Below, in pieces: positions 42,257-53,406 of a DNA stretch of 64,000 bases. Made by a program: the position numbers and the translations under genes. The notes under the pieces were generated by a model. That model was not told the DNA's origin. It ran no database searches and was given only the letters and a program-made list of their open reading frames with translations. Each line of letters begins with the position of its first letter. Position 1 is the stretch's first letter. The DNA comes from Phycicoccus sp. Root101 (GTDB lineage Bacteria > Actinomycetota > Actinomycetes > Actinomycetales > Dermatophilaceae), in contig NZ_LMCM01000001.1 of the NCBI RefSeq assembly GCF_001426245.1, forward strand, positions 622,625 to 686,624. Direction: 5' to 3'.

Positions 42257-42465
42257 CCGAACCCTCCCCTCCACCGTCCCAGCGATCCTCTCGCACGCCG
42301 ATGGTAGAGGCGTGGGGTGCCCACCGGACGGAAGTCACACATTTGCCGGTGGCGGGGGCCAGCGAGCGACGAGCAGCCTCGGAGGGGCGTCCGCTGCGGC
42401 AGGGGGAGCGCCGCGCACAGCAGAAGGCCCGGACCAGTGGTCCGGGCCTTCTGTCGCTGACGCGT
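42257..42465. other. Gap between the histidine kinase and the left island junction
   Basis: This holds the kinase upstream region and the chromosomal hairpin at 42421-42453. No gene is convincing. Confidence 0.4.
42421..42453 (-). terminator. Original terminator downstream of tRNA-fMet (chromosomal side)
   Basis: A perfect 15-bp stem (42421-42435, 42439-42453, loop AGT) lies just past the 3' end of the partial tRNA copy. It probably ended the tRNA transcript before the island was inserted. Confidence 0.6.
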
Positions 42466-42512
42466 TGGTAGCGGGGGCAGGATTTGAACCTGCGACCTCC
42501 GGGTTATGAGCC
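42466..42512 (-). repeat. Left attachment site: partial tRNA-fMet (3' part)
   Basis: 47 bases identical to the 3' part of the intact tRNA at 53330-53406, including CCA, T arm and anticodon. The 5' half is missing, so this is not a functional tRNA. Confidence 0.92.
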
Positions 42513-42734
42513 ACCCCAGCCAACGTCTCACACGTCCCGCAGCATCTCCCCCGCCGCACGAAATCTCGGCACTGTGTCCCCGGTGTTGCGCCGCGTCTCA
42601 AGCCGTCCCGCCTGCTCCCGGTTACACATTTGGCTACACCTCCACGGAGCGGACAGTGCCGGTCAGTGTCCGACGTGGCTCCCCGCCCGAGGATCCATTC
42701 ACCGCCCTGCAAATCGCCCCCGGCGGGGGACGCA
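42513..42734. other. Island left end with arm-like site
   Basis: Non-coding. It contains TACACATTTGGCTACA at 42623-42638, which matches the right-end site at 53256-53271, and shared short words such as CGTCTCA and GTCCCGC. It is probably a recombinase arm region. Confidence 0.5.
42623..42638 (+). repeat. Arm-type-like site, left
   Basis: TACACATTTGGCTACA differs from the right-end copy at one base and has the same orientation. It lies about 110 bases inside the left tRNA repeat. Confidence 0.55.
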
Positions 42735-44006
42735 TCACTGGGCGGCCAGCTCGGCGCGGCCTGCGGGAGTTCCTTGATCCAGCCATGTCGGGAGGATCTC
42801 AGGCGACAGCAGGGCGTCCATGACCATGTGAGCCGCGCCGCGCAGACCGGCCCGGTCGCTCAGGCCTGAGCGGACGATCTGGAGCGAGCGGGTCGCGAGG
42901 GGCAGCGACCGGCCGATCACGGTCTGCCGAACCTCCGCCAGATAGTAGTCGCCTGCCTCCGAGACCCCCCCTCCGACGAGGATGAGAGAGGGGTTGAAGA
43001 AGTTCACGATCCGCGCCAGGGTCTGCCCGACCAGTCGGGCGGAGGCTGCCAGGAGCTTGATCGCCACAGGGTCGCCGTGGATGGCGGCCTCGCTCACGGC
43101 GCGCGCATCGATCGTGTCCCCGCTCGCGAGCAGATCGGCGAGATAGGCACTGTCACCTTCCCGGGCGGCGGTCTCGCCGTCCCGGCCCAGCGCTGCGCCC
43201 CCAGCCAGCGCCTCGAGGCAGCCGAACTTGCCACACCGGCAGAGCACGGTGGATCCCTCCTCCACAATCACGTGCCCGATGTCGCCCGCGCAGCCCTGGG
43301 CCCCCCGGTGCAGGACGCCCTGGGAAACGAGTCCTGCGCCGATACCGGAACCGATCTTCACGTAGACGACGTCGCGCAGGCCCTTGGCCTGCCCGGAACG
43401 CAACTCCCCCAGCGCCATCACGTTGACGTCGTTGTCGACCCAGACCGGCGCCTGAAACCGTCCCGCGAAGAAAGCGCGCACGTCGAACCCGTCCCAGCCG
43501 GGCATGATGGGAGGCGCAACCGGCCGACCAGTCGCGAATTCGACGGGGCCCGGGAGGCCGATCCCCAAGCCCCAGATGGGCGCGCCGGCACCGAGCTGCT
43601 GCAGGAGCTCGTCAAAGACTTCGGCCACGCGGGTGAGCACCGTGACCGGCCCCATCGTCACGTCTGCGTCCTCTTCGTACTGGGCCAGAAGGGTCCCCTC
43701 CAGGTCGCTCACAGCGGCCCCGATGCTCGTCGCGCCAAGTTCGGCCACCAGCATCCGGCCTGCATCGGCGGGAAACCGCAGTGCACGCGGGGCGCGACCA
43801 CCGGTCGACCGCAAGGGCGGACCCTCGACCAGCAGGCCCGAGTCCATCAGACGGGCCACCCGCTGGGTCACGACATTTCTGCCAAGACCCGTGGCCTGGG
43901 CGAGTTCCGGGCGTGTGCTGGCCCGGCCGGAGCGCACGGCATCCAGCACACGTACCAGGTCGACGACGTGATCGGGGGCAAGAGGCCCTTGAGTTCTGGC
44001 ATCCAT
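42735..44006 (-). CDS. ROK-family transcriptional repressor
   Basis: ATG 44006 with AAGGAGGTG upstream gives 423 residues. An N-terminal winged helix (about 15-75: STRPELAQATGLGRNVVTQR) is followed by a ROK sugar-kinase-like domain. GLGIGLPGPVEF is the nucleotide/sugar loop. The zinc site is GHVIVEEGSTVLCRCGKFGC (CxCGxxGCxE with LEALAGG). This is the NagC/XylR-like group that binds a sugar and releases DNA. It is divergent from the island operon across 146 bases and therefore very probably controls it. Confidence 0.94.
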   Translation of the reverse strand: MDARTQGPLAPDHVVDLVRVLDAVRSGRASTRPELAQATGLGRNVVTQRVARLMDSGLLVEGPPLRSTGGRAPRALRFPADAGRMLVAELGATSIGAAVSDLEGTLLAQYEEDADVTMGPVTVLTRVAEVFDELLQQLGAGAPIWGLGIGLPGPVEFATGRPVAPPIMPGWDGFDVRAFFAGRFQAPVWVDNDVNVMALGELRSGQAKGLRDVVYVKIGSGIGAGLVSQGVLHRGAQGCAGDIGHVIVEEGSTVLCRCGKFGCLEALAGGAALGRDGETAAREGDSAYLADLLASGDTIDARAVSEAAIHGDPVAIKLLAASARLVGQTLARIVNFFNPSLILVGGGVSEAGDYYLAEVRQTVIGRSLPLATRSLQIVRSGLSDRAGLRGAAHMVMDALLSPEILPTWLDQGTPAGRAELAAQ

Positions 44007-44032
44007 GTCAGCCACCTCCTTCTGTCTGTGAC

Positions 44033-44086
44033 GTAAATATATCAGCACGTTTACTCTTGACTTTTGCACGGTACATGCAGAAGTAT
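44033..44086. promoter_or_regulatory. Divergent promoter/operator of the island operon
   Basis: This AT-rich stretch holds TTGACT (44057-44062), then 18 bases, then AAGTAT (44081-44086) for the plus-strand operon. TATATT on the minus strand (44036-44041) lies before the ROK gene. An inverted repeat GTAAA-N12-TTTAC (44033-44054) and three TGCA words are candidate ROK operators. Confidence 0.45.
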
Positions 44087-44152
44087 GCACCTCACAGGAA
44101 AAACCGGGCAGCGGCTGAGACACCCCACACTGCAGACAGAACGGACTCGACG

Positions 44153-45007
44153 ATGAGGCTCGGTTACCACACCATCACCTGGGGTGGCGTCGTGGGCGAC
44201 GCCACCGGCGTGACCAGCGTCAAGGACCTCTTCTACCGCGTGAATGGCCCCATGGACCGTGCCGTAGCGGACATCGCGAGCCTGGGGTACGAGGGCGTCG
44301 AGATGTTCGACGGCAACGTGGCGGACTACGCCAACCGGCCCGACGAGCTGGCGGACCTGCTGGCCAACGCAGGCGTGGTGCTGGCAGCCGTCTACACCGG
44401 GGGCAACTTCATCTACCCGGACATCCTGAGCGACGAGCTGCACCGGGTGCGTCAGGCGGCGGAACTGGCTGCCCGCTTCGGAGCCGACAACCTCGTCGTG
44501 GGCGGCGGCGCCCGCAGGGCGTCGGGTACCACAGACGGGGACTACTCCGCGCTGGGCGCTGCGCTCGACCAGGTCACCGACATCGCCGAGGAGCTCGGGT
44601 TGGTGGCCTGCTACCACCCGCACCTGACCACCATCGTCGAGAGCCCAGATGAGCTTGACCGGCTGATGGCGCTGACCCGGATCGGCTTCTGTCCCGACAC
44701 CGCCCACCTGATCGCCGGTGGCGGTGACCCCGCGGAACTGATCCGCCGGTATGCAACACGCCTGCGTCACGTGCACCTCAAGGACGTGGACGTGGCGACC
44801 ACCCAATTCCTCCCCTTGGGCCAGGGGGACGTCGACTTCGAGGACGTCATCGCGGCCGTCAACGAGGTCGGCTACGACGGCTGGATCGTCGTCGAGCTCG
44901 ACTCATACGAAGGCGACCCTCGTGAAGCGGCCGCCACCAGCAAGAAGTACCTCGACACGCTGCTCGCAACCGCTGGCGGCACCATCCCCTCAGGAGAGAT
45001 TCGATGA
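44153..45007 (+). CDS. Sugar phosphate isomerase/epimerase-like TIM-barrel protein
   Basis: The 284-residue product starts MRLGYHTITWGG and has the AP_endonuc_2 TIM barrel. Probable metal ligands are in CYHPHLTTIVES, CPDTAHL (Asp and His), HVHLKDVD and VELDSYEG (Glu). This resembles inosose dehydratase IolE and related isomerases, and the 3-keto-sugar lyases/hydratases of glycoside pathways. First gene of the island operon; its stop overlaps the next start by four bases (ATGA). The exact reaction cannot be read from sequence. Confidence 0.85.
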   Translation: MRLGYHTITWGGVVGDATGVTSVKDLFYRVNGPMDRAVADIASLGYEGVEMFDGNVADYANRPDELADLLANAGVVLAAVYTGGNFIYPDILSDELHRVRQAAELAARFGADNLVVGGGARRASGTTDGDYSALGAALDQVTDIAEELGLVACYHPHLTTIVESPDELDRLMALTRIGFCPDTAHLIAGGGDPAELIRRYATRLRHVHLKDVDVATTQFLPLGQGDVDFEDVIAAVNEVGYDGWIVVELDSYEGDPREAAATSKKYLDTLLATAGGTIPSGEIR

Positions 45008-46161
45008 AGAAGAGCACCTACCGCCTGGCGGGCTTGGCGACCGCCATCGCCTTGGCCACGGCCGGCTGCAGTTCAGCCTCCAGCGCGACCACCGGCGTCG
45101 ACGCCGGAGTGTCGTCCAAAGCCGATGATGCGCTGGCGAAGATCAAGGGCACCGTCCTCAGCAAGGGGCCCAACGGCGAAGAGCCCTCCCCTGCCTCGGC
45201 GGCAGCCCTCAGCGCCGAGGAGATCACGAAGGTCAAGGGAATGAAGGCCAAGGCGGCGATCGTCATGCACTACGGAGGCAACGACTGGGCCAACGCGCAG
45301 GTGGACGGCCTGAAGAGCGAGTTCGGCAAGCTGGGCATCGACGTCGTCGCTGTCACCGACGCCAACTTCAAGCCGGACAAGCAGGTCTCCGACCTTGAGA
45401 CCGTGCTCAACCTCAAGCCCGACATCATCGTCTCGATCCCCACCGACCCGGTGGCCACGGCGTCCGCGTTCAAGAAGGCCGCCGCAGCAGGGGTGAAGCT
45501 CGTCTTCATGGACAACGTCCCCCAGGGCATGAAGGCCGGCACGGATTACGTCTCTGTCGTGTCCGCGGACAACTACGGCAACGGTGTCACCTCCGCCCAC
45601 CTGATGGCCAAGGCCCTGGGCGGCAAGGGCGAGATCGGCCTGGTCTTCCACGAGGCCGACTTCTTCGTCACGAAGCAGCGCTACGACGGGTTCAAGTCCA
45701 CCATCACCAAGGACTACCCCGACATCAAGATCGTGGAGGAGAAGGGAATCGCGGGCCCCGACTTCGCCGGCGACGCGCAAGGTGCGGCCAACGCGATGCT
45801 GAGCAAGCACCCCACCCTGGCCGGAATCTGGGGCGTCTGGGACGTTCCCGCCGAGGGCATCATGGCCGCGGCACGTGCCTCCGGTCGTGCGGACCTGAAG
45901 ATCGCCACAGAGGACCTTGGCAAGAACGTCGCAATCGCCTTGGCGAAGAACCAGCTCGTGGTCGGTCTGGGCGCACAGCTGCCCTACGACCAGGGCGTGA
46001 CCGAGGCCCTGCTGGGCGCAGGTGCCTTGCTGGGCAAGAAGGCCCCGCCCTACGTCGCCCTGAGCTCGCTGCCTGTCGACCACTCGAACATCCTCGAGGC
46101 GTGGAAGCAGGTCTATCACCAGGAGCCCCCGGCCGACCTGAAGAGCTCGTACAAGAAGTAG
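45004..46161 (+). CDS. Sugar ABC transporter substrate-binding lipoprotein
   Basis: The 385-residue product has a lipoprotein signal ending ATAGC (Cys22). A ribose/galactose-type periplasmic-binding fold follows (AAIVMHYGGNDWANAQVDGL, then IIVSIPTDPVATASAFKKAA and GIWGVWDVPAEGI). About 60 extra residues between the lipid anchor and the domain form a linker. It binds the imported sugar outside the cell and feeds the RbsA/RbsC-like pair encoded next. AGGAGA precedes ATG 45004. Confidence 0.92.
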   Translation: MKKSTYRLAGLATAIALATAGCSSASSATTGVDAGVSSKADDALAKIKGTVLSKGPNGEEPSPASAAALSAEEITKVKGMKAKAAIVMHYGGNDWANAQVDGLKSEFGKLGIDVVAVTDANFKPDKQVSDLETVLNLKPDIIVSIPTDPVATASAFKKAAAAGVKLVFMDNVPQGMKAGTDYVSVVSADNYGNGVTSAHLMAKALGGKGEIGLVFHEADFFVTKQRYDGFKSTITKDYPDIKIVEEKGIAGPDFAGDAQGAANAMLSKHPTLAGIWGVWDVPAEGIMAAARASGRADLKIATEDLGKNVAIALAKNQLVVGLGAQLPYDQGVTEALLGAGALLGKKAPPYVALSSLPVDHSNILEAWKQVYHQEPPADLKSSYKK

Positions 46162-46218
46162 ACATCCCGGCGGGGCGGACCAGCAGCGATCCGCCCCGCC
46201 ACCAGAAGGGAGTACGCG

Positions 46219-47733
46219 ATGGGCGAGCAGAGCAGTACCGCGACAGCGGTAGAGATGCACGGCATCACCAAGGCATTCGACGGGGTGGTCGTCCTGGACA
46301 ACGTCGACTTCGAGGTCCGCCGCGGCGAGGTCCATGCGCTCGCGGGGGGCAACGGCGCAGGAAAGTCGACGCTCATGAAGATCCTCCAAGGGGTCTACCG
46401 GGCCGACGAAGGGGACATCCGCGTCGACGGCGAGCCCGTAGACATCAACTCCATCCAGAGCGCGCGAGCAGCGGGCATCGGCATGGTGTTCCAGGAGTTC
46501 AGCCTGGTGCCGACTCTGACGGTGGCACAAAACATCTATCTGGCCGACGAGCCCGCTGGAAGGTTCGGTCTCATTGACGACCGAGCTGCCGTCGCGAAAG
46601 CCGCGGAGGTCTTTGCCACCATGGAGGTCTCAGTCAACCCGAAGGCGATGGTTGCCAGCCTCGGAACTGCTTACTGGCAGCTCACCGAAATCGCCAAGGC
46701 GCTGGCCCAGAATGCCCAGATCCTCATCATGGACGAGCCCACGGCGAGCCTGGCCAAGCACGAGACCGAGGCGCTTTTCGACCTCATCGGCCGGATCAAA
46801 GAGCGCGGAATCTCGATCATCTACATCTCCCACCGGATGGACGAGATCTACCGAATCGCCGACCGCATCACCATTCTTCGCGATGGGAAGCGCCTCCTCA
46901 CCGAGCCGCTGGCTGCGGTCACGCCCGAGCAGATCGTCGAGGGGATTGTCGGCAAGAAGATCGAAGGTCAGATGAACTACCGCGAACGGGAGGGTCTCGA
47001 CCAGCGGGAGGCCCTGCTGGAAGTATCCGGGCTGACCAGTGGTCCCCTGGTGCAGGACGTCTCATTCACCGTCCACGCAGGCGAGATCATCGGGCTCGCC
47101 GGCCTCATGGGAAGTGGACGCACCGAGCTCGCCCGGACCCTCTTCGGGATCGACAAGGCCACGAGCGGAACCATCCGCCTGCGGGGCAGGGAGATCACCG
47201 TCAACGACCCCCGCGCCGCGATCGGTCACGGACTCGCGCTCATCCCGGAGGACCGTCGCGAGCAAGGACTGGTCCTGGACCATTCCGTACGCGAGAACCT
47301 GCTCCTCCCCCTGCTGGGGAAGCTCAAGAAGGGTCCGCTGCTCGACGGGAAGGCGGGAAAGGCCATGTCCTCCAGCCTCATTCAGCGGTTTGCCATCAAG
47401 GCAACCAACCCGAATCGGCCCATCCGTCTGCTCTCGGGCGGCAACCAACAGAAGGTCGTGATCGCCAAGTGGCTGGGCACCGAACCCGACGTCCTCATCC
47501 TTGACGAACCCACCGCGGGAGTGGACATCGGGACCAAGTCCGAGATTCTCGACATGGTCCGCGCCCTCGCTGATGTCGGCAAGGCCGTCATCCTCATCTC
47601 CTCGGAGTACCCCGAGCTCCTCGCGGTCAGCGACCGCATCCTCATCCTGCGTGACGGCTCTGTGACCCGCGATCTGCGGCGCAGCGAGATCGCCGACGAG
47701 GAATCCCTTCAACTGGCCGTTCAAGGAGTCTGA
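46219..47733 (+). CDS. Sugar ABC transporter ATPase, two-domain RbsA type
   Basis: The 504-residue product contains two ATPase domains. Domain one has GGNGAGKSTLMK (Walker A, near 45) and LIMDEPTASL (Walker B), with a changed signature (LGTAYWQLTEIAKALAQN rather than LSxGxxQ). Domain two has GLMGSGRTELARTLFG in the degenerate Walker A place and LLSGGNQQKVVIAKWL with VLILDEPTAGVDIGTK, as in RbsA/MglA. It drives import of a monosaccharide or related sugar. It lies four bases before the permease gene. Confidence 0.95.
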   Translation: MGEQSSTATAVEMHGITKAFDGVVVLDNVDFEVRRGEVHALAGGNGAGKSTLMKILQGVYRADEGDIRVDGEPVDINSIQSARAAGIGMVFQEFSLVPTLTVAQNIYLADEPAGRFGLIDDRAAVAKAAEVFATMEVSVNPKAMVASLGTAYWQLTEIAKALAQNAQILIMDEPTASLAKHETEALFDLIGRIKERGISIIYISHRMDEIYRIADRITILRDGKRLLTEPLAAVTPEQIVEGIVGKKIEGQMNYREREGLDQREALLEVSGLTSGPLVQDVSFTVHAGEIIGLAGLMGSGRTELARTLFGIDKATSGTIRLRGREITVNDPRAAIGHGLALIPEDRREQGLVLDHSVRENLLLPLLGKLKKGPLLDGKAGKAMSSSLIQRFAIKATNPNRPIRLLSGGNQQKVVIAKWLGTEPDVLILDEPTAGVDIGTKSEILDMVRALADVGKAVILISSEYPELLAVSDRILILRDGSVTRDLRRSEIADEESLQLAVQGV

Positions 47734-47736
47734 CCC

Positions 47737-48717
47737 ATGGTCACCATCGCACCGAACCAAGAGAACACCGCACTGGGCTCATTTCAGAGCCGCATGTCCA
47801 CGATCGACTGGCGCCGCTACGTCATCTACATCGGCTTCCTGGTCGTCTTTGCCTTCTTCGCAGTCCTGTTGCGGGACCAAGGCTTTCTCTCCTCCAACAA
47901 CCTGCTCAACATCTTCCGCCAGACCGCGACGATCACGGTCATCGCTGTGGGTATGACCTACGTGATCGCCTGTGCCGAGATCGACCTGTCCGTGGGCTCA
48001 GTGGCAGGACTGTCGAGCGTCGTGACCGCCATGGCTATTTCCAGCTGGGGTCTCATCCCGGGCGTCCTCGCCGGACTCGCGGTGGGCCTTGCCGTGGGCA
48101 CGGTGAACGGTGCCCTGGTGAGCCTGCTCGGTATCCCGTCCTTCCTTGTGACGCTGGGCATGCTCGGCATCGCCGCAGGGGTGGCGCAATGGATAACCTC
48201 CTCGGCGCCGCAGCCCATCCTGAACGACACGTTCAACCTGATCTTCGGTGGTGGAAACTTCGGTCCAGTTCCCGGCCTGCTCGCGTGGAGCGCCATCTTC
48301 GTGACCATCGGCGCCATCGTGCTGGCCAAGACGCGCTTCGGCCGTCAGGTGCTCGCGACAGGCGGCAACCGCACCGCGGCTCAGTTCACTGGGGTGAACA
48401 CACGCAGGATCAAGTTCCAGGTGCTGCTCCTCTCCGCCACGGTCGCCAGCTTTGCCGGAATGCTCTATGCGGGCCGGCTGCAGTCTGGACGGTTCCAGTG
48501 GGGCGCAGGCGACGAGCTGTCCGCCATCGCGGCGGTGATCCTCGGCGGCACCAGCCTCTTCGGGGGCGCAGGATCGGTGGTCGGCACGCTCGTCGGTGCG
48601 CTGCTCATCGGCCTGATCAACAACGGCCTGATTCTTGCCGGACTCGACAGCAGCCAGCAGCAGGTCGTCCGCGGCGTCATCATCATCCTGGCTGTCGCGC
48701 TCGCGCGGAAGAAGTGA
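47737..48717 (+). CDS. Sugar ABC transporter permease, RbsC type
   Basis: The 326-residue product has about nine or ten membrane helices. Typical family segments are VIACAEIDLSVGSVAGLSSV (ID-LSVG), GTVNGALVSLLGIPSFLVTL, GGNRTAAQFTGVNTRRIKFQ and ILGGTSLFGGAGSVVGTLVG. It forms the pore of a ribose/xylose/inositol-type importer. The last residues after about 315 (LAVALARKK) are shorter than in many RbsC proteins. Only three bases separate it from the ATPase gene. Confidence 0.95.
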   Translation: MVTIAPNQENTALGSFQSRMSTIDWRRYVIYIGFLVVFAFFAVLLRDQGFLSSNNLLNIFRQTATITVIAVGMTYVIACAEIDLSVGSVAGLSSVVTAMAISSWGLIPGVLAGLAVGLAVGTVNGALVSLLGIPSFLVTLGMLGIAAGVAQWITSSAPQPILNDTFNLIFGGGNFGPVPGLLAWSAIFVTIGAIVLAKTRFGRQVLATGGNRTAAQFTGVNTRRIKFQVLLLSATVASFAGMLYAGRLQSGRFQWGAGDELSAIAAVILGGTSLFGGAGSVVGTLVGALLIGLINNGLILAGLDSSQQQVVRGVIIILAVALARKK

Positions 48718-48722
48718 GTCGC

Positions 48723-49817
48723 ATGCCCGCACTGCGAGCTGGAATCATCGGCGCCGGCTTCATCGGCGGTGTGCACGCGTATGCCGTGCGAGCAAGCGGA
48801 GGAGTGGTGACGCAAGTCGCCGACCACTCCCCCGAGGCAGCCACCCACGCCGCGGTTCGGCTCGGAGCCAGGTCAGGCGCCGAGTCCCCCGAGGCACTCA
48901 TCGCCTCCGACGACGTCGACGTCGTGCACATCTGCACACCGAATGACACGCACTACGACCTGGCGCTCGCCGCAATGCAGGCCGGGAAGGCGGTCATCTG
49001 CGAGAAGCCGCTGGCCACCTCGGTGGAGCGCGCCGCCCTGCTGGCCGAGACGGCCGAGTCCACGGGCGCGGTCACCGCAGTGCCGTTCATCTACCGCTTC
49101 TACCCCTCCGTCCGTGAGGCGAGGCACCGCATCTCCAGCGGACAGGCGGGAGACCTGTGGATGCTGCACGGCTCGTATCTCCAGGACTGGCTCTCCGGCT
49201 CACAGGAAACGAACTGGAGGGTGGACCCGGCCATCGGCGGTGGGTCGCGAGCCTTCGGCGACATCGGTGTCCACTGGTGCGACGTCATGGAGTTCACCAC
49301 CGGACACCGCATCACACGTCTCGTGTCCCGGATGTCCCAGGCCCACGCCAGCCGGGCAGGCACCGACGGCAGTTCGGTGGTGGGCACCGAGGACGGCGCG
49401 ACCGTGATGTTCGAGACCGACCGCGGCGCGACCGGCTCGGTGGTAGCCAGCCAGGTATCGCTGGGCCGCAAGAACCGGCTCTGGTTCTCCTTCGACGGGA
49501 CCGAGGCGGCTTACGTCTTCGACCAGGAGCTCCCGGACTCTCTGTGGATCGGTGGGCGGTCCTCCAGCCAGATAGTCCCCCGTGGGCCGGATACGTTCAC
49601 CGCCGGTGGCGGCGCCGACTACTCGCGCCTGCCTGCCGGGCACCCACAGGGGTACCAGGACAGCTTCACCGCGTTCATGGCGGATGCGTATGCCGCGGTG
49701 TCCGGCCCGCGGCCCGAGGGGCTTCCCAGTTTCAGCGACGGCCACCGGGCCGCCGTCATCACCGAGGCCGTCCTGGCCTCGGCTGCGAAGGACTCCTGGG
49801 TGGAGGTGCCCTCGTGA
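48723..49817 (+). CDS. Gfo/Idh/MocA-family oxidoreductase
   Basis: The 364-residue product has an N-terminal Rossmann domain (RAGIIGAGFIGGVHAYAVRA) and the EKPLA motif in AVICEKPLATS (Lys as probable catalytic base). GGSRAFGDIGVHWCDVMEF supplies the Asp and His of the active site. The C-terminal alpha/beta domain binds the sugar. Family members oxidise or reduce sugars and inositols with NAD(P). Its place among TIM-barrel and GMC genes suggests it interconverts 3-keto-sugar and sugar, but direction and substrate are open. ATG 48723 lies five bases after the permease stop. Confidence 0.92.
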   Translation: MPALRAGIIGAGFIGGVHAYAVRASGGVVTQVADHSPEAATHAAVRLGARSGAESPEALIASDDVDVVHICTPNDTHYDLALAAMQAGKAVICEKPLATSVERAALLAETAESTGAVTAVPFIYRFYPSVREARHRISSGQAGDLWMLHGSYLQDWLSGSQETNWRVDPAIGGGSRAFGDIGVHWCDVMEFTTGHRITRLVSRMSQAHASRAGTDGSSVVGTEDGATVMFETDRGATGSVVASQVSLGRKNRLWFSFDGTEAAYVFDQELPDSLWIGGRSSSQIVPRGPDTFTAGGGADYSRLPAGHPQGYQDSFTAFMADAYAAVSGPRPEGLPSFSDGHRAAVITEAVLASAAKDSWVEVPS

Positions 49818-50734
49818 AACTCGGGTTCCTCACGGCCTGCCTTCCGGACCGGCCCCTCGAAGACATTGCCAGGTGGGCGGCGGAGCACGACTATGAGGCG
49901 CTGGAGGTGGCAGCTTGGCCGGCACTTGGTGATCGACCGTTCACAGCGAGCCACATCGTGGCTGAGTCGTTCACCGACGGCGACGCCGAGAAGATCCGTG
50001 CGCTGTTCGAACACCACGATCTCACCCTGTCGTCCCTTGCGTTCTACGACAACAACCTTCACCCTGACCTTAGGGAACGACAGGCGATCAACGACCACGT
50101 CATCGCGTGCATCGATGCTGCCGCTCTCCTCGATGTCCCTACCGTCGGGACGTTCATCGGCCGCCATCCTGGCCAGAGCGTGGCGGACAACCTTCGCGAG
50201 GCCGAGAGGATCTTCCCGCGACTCGTGGACCACGCCGGCCAGAAGGGCGTCAAGCTCGTCATCGAGAACTGCGTCATGGAGGGCTGGCACCCCGACGGTT
50301 ATCCCGGAAACCTTGCGTACTCCCCTGAGCTCTGGGAGTGGATGTTCGGGCTGGGCCTCTACCTGAACTACGACCCGTCCCACCTGGTCTGGATGGGCAT
50401 CGACCCTGTGGAGGCGCTGCGCCCCTACGTGGACCGCGTCGCGCACGCCCAGGCCAAGGACATCGAGCTGTTCCCGCACAAGCGGAACCGGTTCGGCTGG
50501 CCCGGGATCGCAGACAAGAGCGCGGACCCGTGGGACGTCGGTTGGTGGCGGTACCGCATCCCCGGTCGCGGTCAGGTCGACTGGAACGGCGTCGTGGACA
50601 CGCTCTACGAGGGCGGGTTCGACGGCGTGCTGTCGGTGGAGCACGAGGACCCGGTCTGGGGCGGCAGCGAGGCCCGGATCGAAACCGGGCTGCTCGTCGC
50701 ACATCACACCTTGCGACCACTCATCATCGCCTGA
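49814..50734 (+). CDS. Second sugar phosphate isomerase/epimerase-like TIM-barrel protein
   Basis: GTG 49814 overlaps the upstream stop (GTGA) and gives 306 residues. Metal-site candidates are KLVIENCVMEG (Glu), LNYDPSHLVWMG (Asp, His), AHAQAKDIELFPHKRNRFGW and VLSVEHEDP (Glu). The long loop FPHKRNRFGWPGIADKSADP and DVGWWRYRIPGRGQVDWN resemble family members beside Gfo/Idh enzymes in plant- and anhydrosugar-derived glycoside pathways. It probably cleaves, hydrates or isomerises a keto-sugar (inference). Confidence 0.87.
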   Translation: MKLGFLTACLPDRPLEDIARWAAEHDYEALEVAAWPALGDRPFTASHIVAESFTDGDAEKIRALFEHHDLTLSSLAFYDNNLHPDLRERQAINDHVIACIDAAALLDVPTVGTFIGRHPGQSVADNLREAERIFPRLVDHAGQKGVKLVIENCVMEGWHPDGYPGNLAYSPELWEWMFGLGLYLNYDPSHLVWMGIDPVEALRPYVDRVAHAQAKDIELFPHKRNRFGWPGIADKSADPWDVGWWRYRIPGRGQVDWNGVVDTLYEGGFDGVLSVEHEDPVWGGSEARIETGLLVAHHTLRPLIIA

Positions 50735-50760
50735 CCCCCACGACTCGAACGGAGGCCCCC

Positions 50761-51390
50761 ATGGCTGACATCTTCCTCGACGCCCACCAGCGGGAGACGA
50801 CAGAGGCGGCAATGGCCCGGATCATCCCGACTGACGACACACCCGGCGCACGCGAGGCCGGCACGATCGACTTCCTCGACCGCTACCTGTCTGGCATCGA
50901 CTACATCTACGCCCTTCCCGACGGGACCGGGTTCGAGACGCTCACTGGACTGCGCGCGCAGGCCTGGCAGCAACGGGTCGACCACGCGCGTGCGGTGTAC
51001 GTCGCAGGGGTCGTCGAGCTCGACAAGCGTGCCAACGACGCCCACGGAAGGTCCTTCGTCAAGCTCGATGACGCCGAGCAGGACGACATCCTTCGCGGGC
51101 TCGAGCATGGCACGAGCGCTCCGACCATCAACTACGGGGGGCCCGAAGAGCCGGCGCTGCAGCAGACCAGCGCCGAGTCCGACCTCGACTTCTTCGGCCT
51201 GCTCGTGACGCACACCCGCCAGGGCTTCCTGGCAGATCCGATCTACGGCGGCAACCGTGGCCAGGTCGGCTGGCAGACCATCGGCTTCCCCGGGCCGAAG
51301 GATCTCGCGGAGGTGCACACCGGCCGCTACACCACCCACCAGTACTTCTCTGACAACCCGACCCACCGCAGCCTGGAGGAGTCCTCATGA
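50761..51390 (+). CDS. Gluconate 2-dehydrogenase subunit 3-like protein
   Basis: The 209-residue product follows GGAGG at ATG 50761. It begins DIFLDAHQRETTEAAMARII, then PTDDTPGAREAGTIDFLDRY, the family motif, and includes FFGLLVTHTRQGFLADPIYG with GGNRGQVGWQTIGFPGP. Such proteins partner FAD-dependent GMC subunits in gluconate 2-dehydrogenase and glucoside 3-dehydrogenase. The usual Tat signal is absent, so the complex should be cytosolic. Its stop overlaps the GMC gene start by four bases (ATGA), supporting a complex of fixed stoichiometry. Confidence 0.9.
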   Translation: MADIFLDAHQRETTEAAMARIIPTDDTPGAREAGTIDFLDRYLSGIDYIYALPDGTGFETLTGLRAQAWQQRVDHARAVYVAGVVELDKRANDAHGRSFVKLDDAEQDDILRGLEHGTSAPTINYGGPEEPALQQTSAESDLDFFGLLVTHTRQGFLADPIYGGNRGQVGWQTIGFPGPKDLAEVHTGRYTTHQYFSDNPTHRSLEESS

Positions 51391-53024
51391 CCATCCCCGC
51401 GACCAAGCCCGAGAGAGTCGATGCCGTGATCATCGGCGCCGGCGCCTCCGGGGCAGCCGCGGCCAAGGTGCTCACCGAGGGTGGCATGCGCGTGGTCGCC
51501 CTCGAGAAGGGGCCCTGGCGCACCAAGGAGTCCTTCGGCGGAGACGAGCTGGCCAACGTCAACCGCTACAACCTCTGGCCCGATCCACTGCTGAACCCCC
51601 GCACATCGCGGCGCGACACCGAGAGCGAGGCGGAGGTCGACCTCTTCTGCCCGGTTCCGCAGATGGTCGGTGGCGGGACGGTCCACTGGCAGGGGTGGCT
51701 CCCCCGATTCACCGAGAACGACTTCCGCCTGCGCAGCATCGCGGGCGAACTGCCCGGGACCTCACTTGCCGACTGGCCGATCACGTACGCCGAGCTGGAG
51801 CCCTACTACGACAAGGTCGAGTGGGCCTTCGGAGTCTCGGGACAGGCCGGAGCGAACGCGTTCGAGTCCTTCCGTTCCCGGGGCTACCCCTGCCCGCCGA
51901 TGCCCCAGTCCCGCTACGCCGAGAAGTTCCACCTCGGCTGCGAACAACTCGGCTGGAACTCCTTCCCGACTCCGCAGGCGGCCCTGTCTCAGCCGTTCAA
52001 CGGGCGGCCCGCCACGGTCATCAGCGCCTTCGCGCAGCAGCACGGCGATCCCAGTGGCACCCGGTCCAGCGCACTGAACGTGTTCATCCCCGATGCTGTC
52101 GCCACGGGCCGGTACGACCTTCGGGCGGACTCCTACGTTCGCGAGCTCACGGTCGACTCTCAAGGTCGCATCCAGAGCGCCGTGTACGAGGACTCCGCGG
52201 GTCGACTCGTGGAGCAGGAGGCCGATGTCTTCATCCTTGCCTGCGGCGCCGTGGAGACCGCCCGGCTGATGTTGCTGTCGACCTCCTCGAGGTTCCCCAA
52301 CGGACTCGCCAACGGCAACGACCTCGTGGGGCGCAACGTCACCTTCCATGAGTACAGCGCGTCGGTCGGCACCTTCGAGGACCCGATCAATGCCTGGGCC
52401 GGCGGCGGCTATGTCAGCGCGAGCAGCTTCCAGTTCTACGAGCACGACGACTCCAGGGGGTTCGTCAGTGGTGGGCACATTGCTGCCGCCGGAGTCGGCA
52501 TACCACTGCCCATCAACTGGGGACTGCCGGGTCGACCCACCTGGGGCGCCGAGGCCAAGCAGAACGATCGCGACTACTTCAGCCACAGCATGGCGGTCGC
52601 CATGGTCCTGCACGACATGCCGCAGCACGACAACCGGGTCGACCTCGACCCCAACGTCAAGGATGCCTGGGGACTGCCCGTCGCCCGCATCACCCTTCAA
52701 ACCCACCAGAACGACATCGACCAGGGCAGGTTCCTGGTCGACCGGTGCGGGGAGATCCTCGACGCTGCGGGGGCCAAGCAGGTCGACCGCGTCTACGCCG
52801 AGAAGGTGACAGGCAACTGTTCTCACCAGCACGGCACCGCCCGGATGGGTGACGACCCCGCATTGTCAGTACTGGACCGCAACTGCCGCGCCCACGAGGT
52901 CGACAACCTGTTCGTTGTCGACGGCTCTCCGTTCCCCACGGCAACAGGAGCGAACCCGACACTCACCATCATGGCCAACGCCTGGCGGGTCTGCGACCAC
53001 ATCTTGTCGAACCGAGCGAGCTAG
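51387..53024 (+). CDS. GMC-family FAD-dependent oxidoreductase
   Basis: The 545-residue product has the FAD motif VIIGAGASGAAAAKVLTEGG (G17-x-G19-x-x-G22) and an NVTFHEY segment. The catalytic pair lies in SHQHGTARMG (H480, H482) and GANPTLTIMAN (N523). With the small subunit upstream it resembles glucoside 3-dehydrogenase or the sugar C3-oxidases of C-glycoside pathways, which make 3-keto sugars. No heme motif or cytochrome gene is present, so the electron acceptor is unknown. Last gene of the island operon; no signal peptide. Confidence 0.92.
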   Translation: MTIPATKPERVDAVIIGAGASGAAAAKVLTEGGMRVVALEKGPWRTKESFGGDELANVNRYNLWPDPLLNPRTSRRDTESEAEVDLFCPVPQMVGGGTVHWQGWLPRFTENDFRLRSIAGELPGTSLADWPITYAELEPYYDKVEWAFGVSGQAGANAFESFRSRGYPCPPMPQSRYAEKFHLGCEQLGWNSFPTPQAALSQPFNGRPATVISAFAQQHGDPSGTRSSALNVFIPDAVATGRYDLRADSYVRELTVDSQGRIQSAVYEDSAGRLVEQEADVFILACGAVETARLMLLSTSSRFPNGLANGNDLVGRNVTFHEYSASVGTFEDPINAWAGGGYVSASSFQFYEHDDSRGFVSGGHIAAAGVGIPLPINWGLPGRPTWGAEAKQNDRDYFSHSMAVAMVLHDMPQHDNRVDLDPNVKDAWGLPVARITLQTHQNDIDQGRFLVDRCGEILDAAGAKQVDRVYAEKVTGNCSHQHGTARMGDDPALSVLDRNCRAHEVDNLFVVDGSPFPTATGANPTLTIMANAWRVCDHILSNRAS

Positions 53025-53255
53025 TCAGAGACAGGAAGACTCCGACCGGGTACTGCACGTCACAGGAGCACCACCCAAGGAGAAAATCACCCAAGGCTCT
53101 GTGGCGGGCGCTGACTGGCGATCGCCCGGATATCGACCCGGCGACATCCCGAATTGGCGGCATCCGGCGTCCGGCCGGGCGTCTCATGCGTTTCTGCCTC
53201 GTCCCAGGTGTCCCAAGCGGTCCCGCTCGTCCCGGAGCCCTCGACGCCCGCTGGC

Positions 53256-53271
53256 TACGCATTTGGCTACA
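53256..53271 (+). repeat. Arm-type-like site, right
   Basis: TACGCATTTGGCTACA matches the left copy (42623-42638) at 15 of 16 bases. TGGCTAC is itself repeated 12 bases apart here. Confidence 0.55.
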
Positions 53272-53282
53272 GGTGCCAACGC

Positions 53283-53316
53283 CAGAGGCCCTCTCCTCGA
53301 AAGGAAAGGGCCTCTG
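53283..53316. terminator. Hairpin at the right end of the island
   Basis: CAGAGGCCCT pairs with AGGGCCTCTG, extended inward with one mismatch. It can end the tRNA transcript (minus strand) and the GMC operon (plus strand), replacing the tRNA's original terminator. Confidence 0.6.
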
Positions 53317-53329
53317 ACCTGCTACTTCG

Positions 53330-53406
53330 TGGTAGCGGGGGCAGGATTTGAACCTGCGACCTCCGGGTTATGAGCCCGGCGAGCTACCGAGCTGCTCCAC
53401 CCCGCG
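53330..53406 (-). tRNA. Initiator tRNA-fMet (CAU)
   Basis: 77 bases including an encoded CCA. It begins CGCGGGGTGGAGCAGCTCGG, with an unpaired C1 as in bacterial initiators. The anticodon stem has three G-C pairs (CGGG CTCATAA CCCG), and the T arm is GCAGG TTCAAAT CCTGC. These features separate initiator from elongator tRNA-Met. Its 3' part is the attachment core of the island, which keeps the tRNA intact on this side. Confidence 0.96.

Follow-up and report, generated by a model that had tools for sequence, protein, structure and literature searches.

The window analysed here, a stretch of 64,000 nucleotides from Phycicoccus sp. Root101, contains a segment of sugar genes that lies between two copies of the 3' part of an initiator tRNA-Met (tRNA-fMet) gene. 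ARAGORN called one tRNA in the window, tRNA-Met(CAT) at 53330-53406 on the minus strand, whose sequence has a GGG/CCC anticodon stem and lacks pairing at the first acceptor position; we take these two features to be hallmarks of initiator tRNAs, so the gene looks to be of initiator type. Positions 42466-42512 and 53330-53376 are identical at 47/47 positions and stand in direct orientation; the 47-bp copy had been described in an earlier note on this DNA, made from the letters alone, which proposed a catabolic genomic island in the initiator tRNA-Met gene. The 10.8 kb between these two copies of the core contain nine genes, namely a divergent ROK regulator on the minus strand and a sugar operon. 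The GC content of the segment between the cores is 66.5% vs 71.4% and 71.8% in the flanks, and the looser codon use described in the earlier note is also present: the GC content at third codon positions (GC3) is 0.82-0.91 in the nine cargo genes vs 0.94-0.97 in the RNase J, kinase, and UPF0182 genes. The boundary features are listed below (G000 denotes the window genome, and other G numbers denote compared genomes).

42421..42453, no strand: native terminator hairpin of the tRNA, here separated from the complete gene by the island; it adjoins the complete tRNA in the empty site of G007, and the same flank lies at the displaced core of G003, G006, and G008
42466..42512, minus strand: displaced 3' fragment of tRNA-fMet (copy of the attachment (att) core), 47/47 identity to 53330-53376
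42513..42657, no strand: left end of the element with GTCYCR repeats, 77-81% identity to the left ends of G003, G006, and G008
42620..42638, plus strand: arm-like site GGTTACACATTTGGCTACA, from the motif search
53096..53329, no strand: right end of the element with phased GTCYCR repeats and a new terminator, 76-77% identity to the right ends of G003, G006, and G008
53253..53271, plus strand: arm-like site GGCTACGCATTTGGCTACA, from the motif search
53283..53316, no strand: island-borne terminator-like hairpin, now behind the restored tRNA, aligned across four islands
53330..53406, minus strand: complete tRNA-Met(CAT), initiator type, called by ARAGORN; its 53330-53376 part would come from the element

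Ten genomes of the same genus were compared at the UPF0182/tRNA-fMet locus. The sister of the window genome, G007 (100/100 support in a tree of the 1.95-kb UPF0182 region), has the terminator, one tRNA-fMet, and UPF0182 but lacks the cassette; from its terminator to the tRNA, the sequence matches window positions 42421-42465, and no second core was found in the 18.6 kb read to the left of its tRNA. This is the empty site that had been predicted, including the hairpin at 42421-42453, which, judged by this comparison, is the native 3' terminator of the tRNA-fMet because it directly adjoins the complete tRNA in G007. In G001, G002, and G010, the terminator is of native type and the approximately 18-19 kb read contain no second core; G005 and G009, which have a diverged 3' side, were not classed as empty or occupied. 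The locus thus has the arrangement of a tRNA-integrated island, with the complete tRNA and a displaced, directly oriented 3' fragment at opposite ends and an empty allele in close relatives (G007, plus G001, G002, and G010). It follows from the empty sites that the left copy in the window is where the 3' side of the tRNA originally lay and that the right side is element-derived. Comparison with these sites shows an insertion geometry in which the core of the element would restore the tRNA, its right end would supply a new terminator, and the old 3' end would be displaced to 42466-42512. The outcome that had been named as speaking against an island (no empty allele, and a 47-bp copy independent of the cassette) was not found, and each genus genome with a clear second core (G000, G003, G006, and G008) also has both element ends. 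With the empty allele in G007, the exact core repeat, and the lower-GC3 sugar operon, the catabolic island in the initiator tRNA-Met gene is borne out. As a separate observation, G007 has approximately 5.4 kb between the kinase gene and the terminator (L030:13300-18570), outside the tRNA and absent from the window, which includes a rhodanese/metallo-beta-lactamase protein and a TauE permease.

Besides the window genome, a second partial copy of the tRNA was detected in G003 (56 bp, 100%), G006 (55 bp, 94.5%), and G008 (47 bp, 100%), and in each case the displaced side has kept the native terminator and a terminator of another kind stands beside the complete tRNA. The partial copy of G003 is itself called as a tRNA-Met by ARAGORN, and its status as a fragment would thus be missed by a tRNA caller alone. 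The left ends (145 bp) of the four islands are 77-85% identical to each other and the right ends (234 bp) 74-77%, whereas 60 random cargo pairs gave a mean of 45.6% and a maximum of 55.5% for the left-end comparison and 45.1% and 55.4% for the right-end comparison. When the ends were removed, the cargo gave no blastn match in 10 pairs, and tblastx matches were limited to nine between G000 and the left part of the G008 island and six between the two G008 parts. The G003 island (approximately 4.3 kb) contains RHS-like fragments recognized by eye, and the single open reading frame (ORF) scanned in it has no Pfam match; the G006 island (2.75 kb) encodes a protein with a BNR match below the Pfam cut-off; and the G008 island, which is found on two contigs (at least 7.5 kb plus 2.3 kb), encodes a 1661-amino acid BTAD/STAND/WD40 protein and others. 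For these four genomes, the alignments show a family that shares only ends of approximately 145-235 bp (core, arm-like site, GTCYCR repeats, and terminator) around cargo that appears unrelated. Two side observations were made in G008: just inside the right end (L031:1980-2060), a terminator-like hairpin precedes a fragment similar to the 3' part of a different tRNA, which might be what is left of a second element's att site, and near-identical copies of a tiny ORF (MTTLRTKATTAFVLLSSVAWLAIETAP...) lie close together inside the island (L031:820-1130).

A search with the whole left end in 186 genomes of the family gave eight matching genomes, strong in the same four and weak in G204, G203, G004, and G173, and the right end matched six, i.e., the four plus weak matches in G173 and G187. 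The weak matches of G173 and G187 (E 4e-4 to 1e-3) were taken as chance, and G094 and G122 were dropped as right-end carriers because their likeness is limited to the terminator and no arm motif was seen. G004 has a right end whose arm is missing 2 bp and a 72-bp remnant of a left end (75%) approximately 14 kb away; the 18.8 kb read contain no left core copy, and no arm motif (up to 2 mismatches) was found. Between these ends are LacI and GntR regulators, a sugar-binding protein, a permease, IolB/KduI-, PfkB-, TIM-barrel-, and Gfo/Idh-family proteins, and an FGGY kinase, and the GC content of the segment (69.5%) is close to that of its left flank (68.7%), unlike the window island. G004 looks like a decayed fifth member, an immobilised island, whose cargo would also serve sugar catabolism, of inositol type as far as protein families suggest.

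Allowing up to 2 mismatches, the arm-like repeat GGYTACRCATTTGGCTACA has exactly two copies in G000, G003, G006, and G008 alike, one at each island end, and none in the other 7 of the 11 genus genomes; a control with the reversed pattern also gave none. With up to 1 mismatch it is present in 8 of the 186 family genomes, the other four making up the whole of genus g6 in this set. The shorter motif GTCYCR occurs 36 times in the 1516 bp of the eight ends vs 2.2 expected from the cargo, often with a spacing of 9-10 bp, and not once on the opposite strand. Among 396 genomes of the order, the arm motif was found outside the family only in G246 and G509, with one mismatch each. In G246 (L116:1662-3225), a one-base variant of the motif begins 9 nt past the stop codon of a tyrosine integrase gene, the product of which contains an arm-DNA-binding domain (PF14657); a terminator and a tRNA-Pro follow, and arm motif, terminator, and tRNA come in the same order at the right end of the islands. 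Named genome contigs contain 14 stretches with the motif, five in four related-type actinobacterial genomes, two in Nocardia australiensis (L107 and L114, two contigs on which the motif and its flanking sequence lie beside tRNA-Gly(TCC)), one in an Acidimicrobiia metagenome-assembled genome, and six in other phyla. Viral contigs with motif matches include L061, which was followed further, and L062 and L115, which were only looked at, and one viral contig has the motif at the 5' end of an integrase gene. Considering that the motif is found beside integrase genes or tRNAs in G246, the viral contig, and Nocardia australiensis, the GGYTACRCATTTGGCTACA-type repeat looks like an integrase arm site. 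Four further viral matches with no tRNA core were dropped, and the motif in G205 was rejected as a tRNA-fMet case, as the core behind which it sits is tRNA-Pro-like by eye.

Element ends were also found joined to each other. In G204 and G203, which belong to another genus, a right end, a core of approximately 46 bp, and a left end follow each other directly; the two genomes share 978 bp at 88.5% across this junction and then have different cargo, in G204 an AMP-binding (acyl-CoA synthetase-like) protein and a thiolase protein, and in G203 an ORF with no Pfam match whose DNA is 81% identical over 651 bp to the BNR-like gene of G006. AbiEi/AbiEii-family ORFs lie ahead of the right end in G203. 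Such joined ends fit tandem cassettes, as far as these contigs can suggest. In G015, a right end of this type continues through the core into a left end that has another repeat. G015 also has a tyrosine integrase gene (PF00589 plus an arm-binding domain) directly behind a 44-bp tRNA-fMet core (L067:1370-2948); the repeat across that core, GCTGCCATTCTGCTGCCAT, is a different one, and this would represent another element type at the same tRNA-fMet. G192 has an integrase gene beside tRNA-fMet, again with a different repeat; it has a native-like flank with no second core seen in 8 kb, and this integrase is a possible part of an element inserted in tRNA-fMet. A 38-bp copy of the tRNA-fMet core was found in G021. 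The earlier note called the initiator tRNA a less often described integration target than elongator tRNAs; in this family it is not an exceptional target, as G015, G192, and G021 show other element signatures at the same gene. As a further observation at this target, approximately 40 bp of Arthrobacter phage Galaxy (L155:2501-2543) match the tRNA-fMet core, with hairpin-like sequence adjacent and an integrase gene approximately 2 kb away; this could be a phage attachment site (attP) of phages using the initiator tRNA. Phage-borne tRNA-fMet genes are reported in the excerpted text of PMC12429752, which does not concern integration.

None of the 13 PF00589 matches of the Root101 genome lies in the window, and 34 integrase queries against five island sequences from four genomes gave nothing at E 0.01 (a control contig was found). 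No transfer or replication family was detected in the cargo proteins scanned, which represent part of the ORFs. Similarity to plasmids and phages consisted only of tRNA stretches and single-gene matches (among the best 20 of 101, 20 of 143, and 12 of 344 records). An intact parent with these ends was not found among the matches followed up in the family (186 genomes), the order (396), and named genome contigs. The G246 integrase matches 20 of the 186 family genomes at E 1e-25, and the only near-full-length match is that of G192 beside tRNA-fMet. Integrase ORFs of G000, G003, G006, and G008, from 21 of the first 31 loci and then ten regions, were grouped by blastp. A XerC/XerD-like pair and one divergent integrase group are common to all four occupied genomes; another group, with approximately 43% identity, is common to G000, G003, and G006 and lies beside tRNA-Arg in G003 and G006, and the groups shared by two genomes include one of G000 and G006 with 97% identity. 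None of the groups shared among the four occupied genomes has the arm motif in the fetched loci. A side observation is an integrase-family protein of G003 beside tRNA-Lys (L125:1607-3121) with a helix-turn-helix domain inside its catalytic region. The cassette had been described as self-contained; the ROK regulator and the operon are indeed present, but the island is not self-contained because it has no recombinase gene aboard.

Considering that the island has no integrase of its own and that other cargo is found within the same ends at the same tRNA, it appears to be one of a family of swappable inserts using the enzyme of another element. The segment 42513-53329 is probably a genomic island that arose by site-specific insertion into the 3' half of the initiator tRNA and is non-autonomous, with interchangeable cargo moved in trans. 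In the most likely mechanism, a tyrosine integrase, perhaps together with an excision factor, from a co-resident or incoming element would bind the ends and excise or integrate the island in trans, and tandem insertion with recombination at the shared core would allow the cargo to be exchanged. We also put forward, tentatively, a distributed cassette system in this family of bacteria, which would consist of ends and cargo only, form arrays at the initiator tRNA, and have its integrase encoded elsewhere, in an integron-like manner; the cargo of this possible system would comprise sugar catabolism, a STAND/WD40 regulator, a BNR-like protein, and AbiE toxin-antitoxin genes.

Several observations weigh against the proposed family of islands mobilized in trans. 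No autonomous tRNA-fMet element with the arm motif was found in the 186 family genomes, and an integrase of the G246 type was not found at E 1e-25 in G000, G003, G006, and G008. The divergent integrase group common to these four genomes is 97% identical between G006 and G008, approximately 46% to G003, and approximately 55% over 136 residues to G000, where only a fragment is present; its neighbours are tRNA-Thr (G006 and G008) or tRNA-Lys (G003), and its fetched loci contain no arm motif. The GTCYCR motif was picked after the alignment had been seen. The junctions in G203, G204, and G015 could be excised circles or assembly products because they are on short draft contigs (4-10 kb). In addition, the UPF0182 tree places G003, G006, and G008 in one clade, and identity between their ends (74-85%) does not exceed that between their UPF0182 regions (85-87%); with this chromosome-like divergence, a single old insertion with homologous exchange of cargo fits these three genomes too.

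Among other explanations, an unlikely one, although the strongest of them, is that each island is an ordinary decayed integrative and conjugative element (ICE), integrative and mobilizable element (IME), or actinobacterial ICE (AICE), i.e., a cis-mobilizable element (CIME), that lost its integrase and transfer genes independently and kept the att ends. CIMEs are defined exactly as decayed elements with att ends in the text excerpted from PMC5704250, 15 of 31 Dehalococcoides ssrA islands are without an integration module in the excerpts of PMC3146451, and G004 is clearly decayed, with a left-end remnant and a right end and no left core in the 18.8 kb read. However, the five island sequences of the four genomes contain no integrase remnant, the scanned part of the cargo proteins includes no transfer or replication family, and decay to bare ends would be needed at least twice on the tree, or four times if the islands arrived separately, with the non-coding ends still alignable. 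Less plausible still, and in our judgment improbable, is a single old insertion in the genus that was lost in some lineages and had its cargo replaced by homologous recombination at the ends or flanks, with no mobility today. The fully occupied clade of G003, G006, and G008 and its chromosome-like end divergence speak for such a history, but G007 (the sister of G000), G001, G002, and G010 are empty, and related ends are found in another genus, where the left-end cargo of G203 is 81% identical to G006 over 651 bp. Entry of the cassette by general recombination beside an unrelated old tRNA fragment, the repeat being coincidental, would suit an island without a recombinase gene but is hardly credible given the exact 47-bp core, the displaced position of the native terminator, the new terminator adjoining the complete tRNA, and the matching empty allele, which contradicts it.

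The nine genes between the cores of the window island are as follows.

42735..44006, minus strand: ROK-family regulator (PF00480, 8.1e-57), start assumed at 44006
44153..45007, plus strand: sugar isomerase/dehydratase-like TIM barrel, IolE-like (PF01261; matches to IolE and 2-hydroxy-3-keto-glucal hydratase chains)
45004..46161, plus strand: sugar substrate-binding protein (PF13407)
46219..47733, plus strand: sugar ABC transporter ATPase (PF00005, two stretches)
47737..48717, plus strand: sugar ABC transporter permease (PF02653)
48723..49817, plus strand: Gfo/Idh/MocA oxidoreductase, related to levoglucosan dehydrogenase (PDB 6a3f, E 2.9e-46)
49820..50734, plus strand: second sugar isomerase/hydratase-like TIM barrel (PF01261; weak match to 8ro4)
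50761..51390, plus strand: gluconate 2-dehydrogenase subunit 3-like protein (PF13618, 7.4e-31)
51387..53024, plus strand: large subunit of a GMC-family FAD sugar dehydrogenase (PF05199/PF00732; PDB fructose and glucose dehydrogenases at approximately 1e-45)

The Gfo/Idh protein is closest to PDB 6a3f, which we take to be levoglucosan dehydrogenase, and scores 179.9 bits against the NCBIfam model LevoglcsnDh (NF052479), below its curated cut-off of 650; the first TIM barrel likewise scores below the cut-off of the IolE NCBIfam model, and both TIM barrels give weak matches to 2-hydroxy-3-keto-glucal hydratase. These families suggest a regulated sugar uptake and 3-keto-sugar-type catabolic operon, which might act on an anhydrosugar or a glycoside. 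At E 1e-120, the GMC gene is present in 2 of the 186 family genomes, G000 and G128 (77% identity). G128 has most of the operon in conserved order (20 kb read), with a ROK match of 39% and a second TIM barrel that is weakly matched (27%) and displaced, and neither the tRNA core nor the arm motif was found on the 20 kb read, as expected if the island cargo is captured.

The end-sharing, integrase-less family is, in our view, a more interesting finding than the window island itself. Being defined by its ends, it suggests that whole catabolic operons may be carried at a tRNA gene without a recombinase aboard. The conserved ends provide a directly testable minimal substrate for integration in trans and may open a single-step route for the operon, with its GMC gene in 2 of the 186 family genomes. 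The Islander database requires an integrase gene in the island according to the excerpted text of PMC4383910, and surveys with this requirement leave out integrase-less islands such as the one in the window. No description of this island family was found in the open-licence literature searched.

Several known systems resemble parts of what is seen here, as far as the excerpts of the cited sources describe them. The lgd pathway of Bacillus smithii proceeds by 3-dehydrogenation, elimination, hydration, and reduction (PMC7676230), and its cluster, like the operon in the window, includes a Gfo/Idh-type dehydrogenase, two sugar-isomerase-like proteins, and a sugar ABC transporter, whereas the window operon has one Gfo/Idh protein, a GMC/gluconate_2-dh3 pair, and a ROK regulator. 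AICEs of actinobacteria integrate into tRNA genes by tyrosine integrases, including a tRNA-Met case (PMC3218068), and the integrase-bearing end of G246 has a comparable order of arm motif, terminator, and tRNA core; unlike AICEs, which carry their own integrase, replication, and transfer genes, the window island has none of these among its nine cargo genes. Dehalococcoides ssrA islands stand in tandem at one RNA gene with catabolic cargo (PMC3146451), but they use serine recombinases and a 20-bp repeat, whereas here 46-47 bp of tRNA-fMet form the core and the integrases next to the motif are of the tyrosine type. The microcin H47 island of Escherichia coli (13 kb) has direct repeats and no recombinase genes and is moved by functions of its genetic context (PMC3191183); in contrast to its one cargo system and extensive imperfect repeats, the present islands have a tRNA-fMet core, arm-like ends, and several cargos. 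CIMEs are flanked by left and right attachment sites (attL and attR), have no integration or transfer genes, occur in tandem with other elements, and derive from decayed ICEs or IMEs (PMC5704250). The window island likewise keeps attL and attR without integration or transfer genes, but here one pair of ends recurs around unrelated cargo and no integrase remnant was seen. The island family may thus work like a CIME or the microcin H47 island as outlined in these sources, although the searches gave no intact parent from which it could have decayed, and its resemblance to an integron cassette array is functional only, namely interchangeable cargo at one site.

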